DNA from: Thermomonas sp. XSG
GTDB taxonomy: Bacteria > Pseudomonadota > Gammaproteobacteria > Xanthomonadales > Xanthomonadaceae
Length of the DNA: 64,000 nucleotides
NCBI RefSeq assembly: GCF_014678725.1
Contig: NZ_CP061497.1
Location: forward strand, 2,930,001 to 2,994,000
Direction of reading: 5' to 3'
The position numbers were made by a program, and so were the translations under genes. The notes under the pieces were generated by a model, which saw nothing but the letters and a program-made list of their open reading frames with translations, had not been told where the DNA came from and ran no database searches. Numbering within the stretch: position 1 is the first letter of the stretch; each line of letters starts with the position of its first letter. Of the stretch, positions 19,858-21,225 are shown piece after piece.

Positions 19858-21225
19858 ATGCCCCAGACCCTGAAAGACACCAAGATCGCTATCATCGGCC
19901 TCGGCTACGTGGGCCTGCCGCTGGCGGTGGAGTTCGGCAAGCAGTACGCCACCACCGGCTTCGACATCAACAGCGCCCGCATTGCCGAACTGAAGCAGGG
20001 CAGGGACAGCACCCTGGAAGTGGAGCCGGAACTGCTGGCCCAAGCCACCGGCCTGCGTTTCAGCGACCAGCTGGACGATATCGCCGGCTGCAACGTCTAC
20101 ATCGTGACGGTGCCCACCCCCATCGACACCGCCAAGCGCCCGGACCTGACCCCGCTGGTCAAGGCCAGCGAGGCCATCGGCAAGGTGCTCAAGCCCGGTG
20201 ACACCGTGATCTACGAATCCACCGTCTACCCCGGTTGCACCGAAGAAGTCTGCGTCCCCATCCTGGAACGCGTCTCCGGCCTCACGTTCGAAGCCGCTGC
20301 CGGTGCCGCCAATGCCAACACCCCCGCCGCCAATGCCCCTGTAGGAGCGCACCGCAGGGGCGCGATCCCCGCCGCCCCCACCTTCGCCGTCGGCTATTCC
20401 CCGGAACGCATCAACCCCGGCGACAAAGCCCACCGCGTCACCACCATCAAGAAAGTCACCTCCGGTTCCACCCCGGCCACTGCCGATTTCGTGGACGCCC
20501 TGTACGCCAGCATCATCACCGCCGGCACCCACAAGGCGCCCACCATCAAGGTGGCCGAGGCCGCCAAGGTCATCGAGAACACCCAGCGCGACCTCAACAT
20601 CGCCCTGGTCAACGACTTGGCGATCCTGTTCAACAAGCTGGGCATCGACACCCTGGACGTGCTGGAAGCCGCCGGCACCAAATGGAACTTCCTGCCGTTC
20701 CGCCCCGGCCTGGTGGGCGGCCACTGCATCAGCGTGGATCCTTATTACCTGACCCATAAAGCCCAGGAAGTGGGCCACCACCCGCAGGTCATCCTGGCCG
20801 GCCGCCGCACCAACGACGGCATGGGCGCCTACGTGGCGGACCAGGTCATCAAGCTGATGGTGCGCAAGGGCATCAACCCGGTGAATGCCCGCATCCTGAT
20901 CCTGGGCCTGGCCTTCAAGGAGAACTGCCCGGACCTGCGCAATACCCGCGTGGTGGACATCGTTGCCGCCCTGCAGGGCTACAACGCCCGCGTGGACGTG
21001 CACGATCCGTGGGTGGATGCGGCCGAAGCACAGCACGAATACGGCATCAGTCCGATCGCGGCGCCGGAGCAGGGCGGCTACGACGCGGTCGTCGTGGCGG
21101 TGGGACACCGGCAATTCTGCGAACTGGGTGGCGAAGGCGTGCGCCGCTACGGCAAAGCGGACGGAAACGTGGTGTTCGACGTGAAGTATGTGCTGCCGCG
21201 GGATGCGGTGGATGGGCGGTTGTAA
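19858..21225 (+). CDS. Nucleotide-sugar dehydrogenase (UDP-HexNAc 6-dehydrogenase, WbpA/TviB-like)
   Basis: This 455-aa enzyme probably oxidises UDP-N-acetylhexosamine at C6. The NAD fold motif is G-L-G-Y-V-G-L-P at residues 14-21. The catalytic Cys290 lies in [11 protein letters not shown], and the P-C-domain block [11 protein letters not shown] is present. The S-P-E-R-I-N-P-G-D motif and V-P-T-P-I-D distinguish it from UDP-glucose dehydrogenase. Residues ~144-175 (A/N/P/G-rich, with [11 protein letters not shown]) are an insertion of about 28 residues relative to the usual S-G-L...G-Y-S-P-E-R spacing, and this DNA contains a REP-like palindrome. It begins the cassette, and galE follows after 3 nt. 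Confidence 0.92.
20337..20370 (+). repeat. REP-like palindrome inside the nucleotide-sugar dehydrogenase gene
   Basis: GTAGGAGCGCACC...GGGGCGCGATCCCC contains a 7-bp stem with one mismatch (GCGCACC against GGGGCGC). It has the head (GTAGGAGCG) and tail (GCGATC) of palindromic repeats common between genes of Xanthomonadaceae. It is read through in frame, giving [12 protein letters not shown] related element lies at 37150-37180. Confidence 0.65.

Follow-up and report, generated by a model that had tools for sequence, protein, structure and literature searches.

A GTAG-type REP is read in frame within a predicted UDP-N-acetylglucosamine 6-dehydrogenase gene of Thermomonas sp. XSG, and the protein loop that it encodes in part holds palindromic repeats of other types in related bacteria. 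Because some related bacteria carry these other palindromes there, the loop seems to be a site at which such DNA can land safely time and again. We consider it probable that the REP entered the loop in the lineage shared by this genome and its relative G024, that it was kept because the loop is flexible, and that the loop is a general sink for palindromes. The window is the whole 64,000-nucleotide stretch of Thermomonas DNA that was analysed. G000 is the label of the genome under study, and other G numbers are compared genomes.

The REP lies within an intact dehydrogenase gene

By profile prediction, the gene at 19858-21225 is an intact member of the TviB-type UDP-GlcNAc 6-dehydrogenase family. 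With 612.6 bits, the whole protein exceeds the curated cut-off of the TviB model NF011729 (592), and three Pfam domains were found in it by profile search. The frame is open from end to end and Cys290 is intact, as the preliminary description had stated; Cys290 is invariant in both sets of aligned rows. This residue lies in the motif GGHCI, and we take it to be the catalytic cysteine of the dehydrogenase family. Upstream of the dehydrogenase gene is a MarR-type EPS regulator gene, and downstream of it a galE-type epimerase gene. Farther along are an acetyltransferase-like gene and three glycosyltransferase-like genes, whose best profile matches all fall below cut-offs. The features of the region are as follows.

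19260-19610, + strand: MarR-family EPS-associated regulator, neighbour (TIGR04176, 140.8 bits, cut-off 88)
19858-21225, + strand: predicted TviB/WbpA-type UDP-N-acetylglucosamine 6-dehydrogenase, 455 aa, open frame (profile match, model, solved relatives 4r16 and 4xr9)
20284-20391, + strand: variable loop T143-V178; 36 residues, against 8 in the short type; flanked by helix 127-140 and strand 175-180
20305-20316, + strand: 12-base direct repeat GCCGCCAATGCC, copy 1, in the upstream part of the loop
20326-20337, + strand: 12-base direct repeat GCCGCCAATGCC, copy 2; the stretch is 30 bases longer in G024
20341-20367, + strand: single copy of the GTAG-type REP, encoding VGAHRRGAI (V162-I170), a codon-aligned genomic repeat
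20725-20727, + strand: codon of Cys290, in GGHCI (invariant in 30/30 and 50/50 aligned rows)
21229-22248, + strand: GalE-type epimerase, neighbour (TIGR01179, 428.3 bits, cut-off 262.3)

The REP, GTAGGAGCGCACCGCAGGGGCGCGATC, is 27 bases long and carries the GTAG tetranucleotide at one end. Its codons are those of V162-I170 of the open gene, which agrees with the earlier claim of a palindrome translated in frame inside a nucleotide-sugar dehydrogenase. That claim had placed the palindrome at 20337-20370; the sequence is present there, but its exact limits are 20341-20367. Of the six reading frames of the REP, one contains a stop codon (the TAG of GTAG); the frame in use is stop-free. As a hairpin the REP is modest. 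The stem identified by eye, GCGCACC/GGGGCGC, spans 7 positions and is imperfect, with one A.G mismatch. The DNA fold gave z = -1.84, with 10 of 200 shuffles folding equally well, and no inverted repeats of 8 or more bases were reported for 20250-20420.

A structure model built with 50 sequences, which superseded a first model (pTM 0.62, poor in the core), reached a mean pLDDT of 88.4 and a pTM of 0.84. Solved UDP-sugar dehydrogenases match it nearly end to end, the best being 4r16_A (Z 39.2, 399 residues, rmsd 2.1). The lowest confidence in the model falls on loop residues 151-170, which average a pLDDT of about 53 (54 for the block 151-160 and 52 for 161-170); other lower blocks are 181-190 (68), 271-280 (65) and 281-290 (65). 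A short helix, 145-153, is drawn at the start of the loop. On this model, the loop is most likely a flexible segment outside the well-folded core.

The preliminary description had counted about 28 extra residues. This figure is right when the 36-residue loop is set against the short loop of 8, but the REP supplies only nine of them, and the idea that the whole 28-residue extension derives from the repeat was rejected for that reason. The stretch preceding the REP is Ala-, Pro- and Asn-rich and contains the 12-base direct repeat. The loop may already have been longer when the REP arrived, or it may have grown by tandem copying around the REP, two putative orders of events.

By codon score, the same repeat is otherwise intergenic

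The genome of 3,047,478 bases was searched with the 25-base core of the REP, with the reversed pattern as a control. There are 21 exact copies, the one in the dehydrogenase gene and 20 others, in line with the mobile palindrome proposed in the preliminary description. Allowing up to 3 mismatches raises the number to 38, with none for the reversed control. The GC-rich flanks and the 12-base direct repeat within them give some room to the view that GC-rich loop DNA is merely REP-like by chance. However, about 1e-7 exact copies of a 25-mer are expected from the base composition of the window, and on copy number this view was rejected; we give it practically no weight.

In the pooled searches, 40 REP copies were found at 23 places, and 17 of these places hold inverted pairs 40-54 bases apart. 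The dehydrogenase copy, unlike these, is unpaired. Flanks were read at all 23 places (37 loci, many of which are two views of one pair), and in-gene calls were made with a simple, home-made and crude codon score. By this score a single place has coding sequence on both sides, the dehydrogenase copy itself, with scores of 58.4 and 68.0. The remaining 22 places do not score as coding on both sides, in keeping with the earlier statement that the repeat normally lies between genes. With one place in 23, the idea that GTAG REPs often enter genes in G000 was rejected. G005 has 87 REP copies at 61 places, and none of the 59 places examined is inside a gene; the two remaining places are the tviB copy of G005 and a copy at the end of a contig.

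An extragenic position is typical of the GTAG-type REP class, whereas the present copy is inside an open, conserved gene. A RAYT gene flanked by REP is also expected of the class. A transposase beside REP was sought and not found: the one Y1-transposase gene found in G000 lacks the motif, with GTAGGNGC absent from the 2327 bases around the sole Y1_Tnp match in the genome. The intragenic position is compatible with the GTAG-type class, because published GTAG REPs include intragenic ones.

Several palindrome types occupy the loop within the genus

All 25 genomes of the genus that were searched, several of them incomplete, matched the dehydrogenase. Their loops fall into four states, with repeat types partly judged by eye: 10 short, 5 longer without a recognised repeat, 9 with palindromic repeats and 1 frame-broken. 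The palindrome in the dehydrogenase loop is thus not an isolated case, a point that the preliminary description had missed. The CGTC label follows PMC3733652, and the CTCTCCC label was coined here.

Short loop: G020, G007, G008, G015, G006, G001, G009, G013, G022, G003
Longer loop, no recognised repeat: G017, G023, G021, G010, G002
GTAG REP: G000, G024, G005
CGTC-type palindrome with further repeat-like DNA: G018
CTCTCCC/GGGAGAG-type palindromes: G012, G014, G019, G016, G004
Frame-broken: G011

At least three distinct palindrome types are therefore present in the dehydrogenase loop within the genus. The loop repeats of G018, G012, G019 and G016 were matched elsewhere in their own genomes, as was that of G141, a member of another genus; a pattern search counted 31 copies of the G018 palindrome in that genome, with the one in the loop among them. 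The G014 loop was typed by its likeness to that of G012, together with at least 2 matches of the CTCTCCC type elsewhere in G014, and the G004 loop by its likeness to that of G141. For the G010 and G002 loops, self-matches alone were found among the matches listed, and these loops were not counted as repeats.

The same loop in homologues without any repeat would speak against insertion. Longer repeat-free loops do exist in five relatives, but none of them is this loop; those of G023 and G017, for example, are 15 residues long (RYEATA...ENTFAI). To judge by these five congeners, growth of the loop does not need repeats.

Three further observations concern single genomes. The loop of G002 has 64 residues, is partly acidic and contains no recognised repeat. 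In G014, a second repeat-like stretch is seemingly nested beside the palindrome shared with G012, and among the matches listed, related stretches occur in G018, G002, G019, G016 and G010. The dehydrogenase of G011 (G011:C7) goes out of frame at the loop, within eight consecutive C, from a sequencing error or a broken gene, and for this reason its loop is listed apart from the other states.

Descent of the loop and its repeats

The most similar gene found is that of G024, with 92% protein identity and 90.5% DNA identity. It carries the REP at the identical spot, within 61 identical bases, and a pattern search found 4 REP copies in the G024 genome. An insertion predating the split of G000 and G024, or an exchange between them, would explain why they have the REP in common. 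The near relatives G023, G017 and G015 lack the REP, which supports the earlier proposal. G005 too has a REP-family copy in the loop.

A tree was built without the loop from 30 rows, with G011 and G023 omitted and seven rows from other genera included. On this tree at least 9 changes are required for the repeat type and 8 for presence or absence of repeats, gain and loss not being separated. Well supported branches alone force 2 changes for GTAG and 3 for the CTCTCCC type. The best tree leaves G000 and G024 unjoined, with weak support, which speaks against simple descent of their REP from a single shared insertion; a quick tree had joined them with support 0.57. G005, which has the REP, stands beside G021, which does not, with support 100/95.

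Long loops outside the genus

Of the loops in 80 homologues from other genomes, 78 were read. A 24-residue spacing was found in 74 and a 23-residue spacing in one, and three were longer. Two of the three long loops are from the Chromatiales, Thiocapsa sp. KS1 and Lamprocystis purpurea, and the palindromes in both occur elsewhere in the respective genome as well, with 32 and 110 own-genome matches to the loop, respectively (counts that include the self-match and overlapping hits). The bacterial family to which the genus belongs was surveyed in 296 genomes, and loci were obtained for 30 matches. G141, from another genus of the family, has a 74-residue loop of three similar units, with repeats that recur in its own genome. 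Longer loops were also seen in G134, G211, G177, G209 and G193.

In-frame palindromes in Mfd and other genes

Mfd was examined because the in-gene palindromes of G018 and G016 led there. One loop of this protein holds CGTC-type palindromes in G018 and a CTCTCCC-type palindrome in G016. Mfd was matched in 21 of the 25 genus genomes: 6 have the base loop length (that of the G000 protein), G013 has 2 more residues, and in 13 the excess is 7 to 30 residues. By eye, five of the 13 longer loops could be assigned to a type, CGTC in G018 and G010 and CTCTCCC in G005, G015 and G016. The mfd loop of G024 reads N.

Further in-frame palindromes were found in G018, in a methyltransferase with a weak likeness to BREX PglX, in 6-phosphogluconolactonase and in part of an RND pump, and also in Mpl of G016 and in an unassigned protein of G012. 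The homologue comparison for absence of the insert covered TviB and Mfd. Entry into genes is less rare for these types than for GTAG REPs. The G018 palindrome lies inside genes at 4 of 20 places under a strict rule and at one more under a softer rule (20 of its 21 places, with tviB omitted). For the CTCTCCC type, sought with a short search pattern of 20 bases, 3 of 21 clusters are inside genes under the strict rule and one more under the soft rule (19 stretches in G016 and 1 in G012).

Explanations for the recurrent use of one loop

The sequence of events that we favour would start with a small palindrome that now and then enters genes, its movement probably being the work of a RAYT-type transposase. 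Nearly all such insertions into genes would be lost. One REP copy would have entered the dehydrogenase loop in frame and free of stops, presumably once and before G024 diverged, and the flexible loop would keep any in-frame, stop-free segment. Over time, several palindrome types would enter the same loop in different species. Palindromes would recur in the loop because selection removes insertions elsewhere in the protein. Because the inserts vary so much, they appear to be neutral, and tolerance of the insert rather than a function for it is the likeliest interpretation of the sequences.

Retention for function would mean that palindrome-coded loops are kept because they serve the enzyme, in partner binding or in control of oligomer or activity, so that change in the loop is selected. 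The repeated occupation of one TviB loop and one Mfd loop is compatible with this, as is the stretch of 61 identical bases that G000 and G024 share at the REP, given that the gene as a whole is 90.5% identical. However, the longer loops vary widely in sequence and in length (14 to 74 residues), 10 of 25 congeners manage with the short loop, loops of similar size exist without recognised repeats, and the loop has low model confidence, all of which makes selection for function improbable. Very improbable, too, is that the DNA at the loop is a preferred insertion target for palindromes irrespective of the protein. Use of the same position in several genera would fit such a target, but about five palindrome types are involved (GTAG REP, CGTC, CTCTCCC, and those of Thiocapsa and Lamprocystis), their position within the loop varies, and Mfd, with different DNA, displays the same pattern.

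Gene exchange between species can mimic repeated insertion, and a few insertions may then have spread across species with the polysaccharide gene or its loop. The dehydrogenase gene sits in a polysaccharide cluster, and such genes may pass between species. The right-hand repeat unit common to G012 and G014, the similar right loop ends of G004 and G141 from different genera, and the REP common to G000 and G024, which the best tree does not join, can all be read in this way. Against this, repeat types differ between tree neighbours (G005 and G021), and wherever tested (G000, G005, G018, G012, G019, G016, G141, Thiocapsa and Lamprocystis) the loop repeat recurs in the genome that carries it. Spread of few insertions by exchange is rated unlikely, though less so than retention for function or a preferred DNA target.

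Beyond repeated insertion into a tolerant loop of this one enzyme, we lean slightly towards a wider proposal, in which a few loops (those of TviB and Mfd, perhaps that of RecB) would be recurrent sinks across orders. Whichever palindrome type is active would enter the loop, be translated, and then decay or be overwritten. If this is true, such a loop continually records repeat activity and steadily supplies new peptide segments, beyond Rickettsia. A loop occupied by several types in many species offers natural replicates and helps to separate tolerance by the protein from choice of a DNA target. The loop variants also indicate which part of a conserved enzyme can take up new sequence, and they make the question of whether inserts are harmless or useful directly testable.

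Relation to known in-frame palindromes

The Rickettsia palindromic elements (RPE), reportedly described by Ogata in 2000 and 2002, are said to be the classic case of in-frame palindromes. The available text of PMC10969869 and PMC3733652 describes them as palindromic DNA found in frame in unrelated metabolic genes, with a length of about 150 bases in the host Rickettsia (PMC10969869). By these descriptions, the likeness lies in an in-frame palindrome within a gene; here, however, the palindrome has 27 bases and the host is Thermomonas. In-frame MITEs, such as QMITE in Coxiella, are short, non-autonomous repeats through which proteins gain residues. The available text of PMC5896051 places QMITE-like elements at gene ends or in hypothetical proteins, whereas the REP described here is in the middle of a conserved enzyme.

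The closest likeness is to the intragenic REPs reported in 2013 in PMC3733652, short GTAG-tagged palindromes of which some are in frame within proteins. In the available text of that paper, GTAG and CGTC REPs are mostly intergenic and often paired, some are read in frame in known proteins, and neutral loops are considered as sites of intragenic REPs. Its remark that recB of X. campestris and X. oryzae carries different REPs at about the same site is the nearest published parallel to the shared loop. There, as far as the text available extends, two species share a site in one gene; here there are several types, many species and two orders, and Mfd in addition. The words 'Mfd' and 'dehydrogenase' do not occur in the main text of PMC3733652.

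The earlier judgement that mobile palindromes adding protein segments are rare in bacteria is too strong, given the intragenic GTAG and CGTC REPs and the Rickettsia RPEs already published (available text of PMC3733652 and PMC10969869). Among the papers listed, and to the extent of their available text, in-frame palindromes outside Rickettsia have so far been recorded case by case. Several palindrome families in one protein loop were not reported, judging by title and start of abstract, in any of the open-licence PMC matches listed, a weak form of absence. In-frame intragenic REPs are thus already known; what appears to be new is the repeated use of a single loop by several types across many species.

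Further dehydrogenase matches

Two other matches to nucleotide-sugar dehydrogenases were observed. The window contains a second, distant match at 1459-2226, which is 26% identical. In G024, a partial second match (G024:C11:92179-92670) covers residues 292-455 with 96% identity and lies about 2 kb from the full gene.
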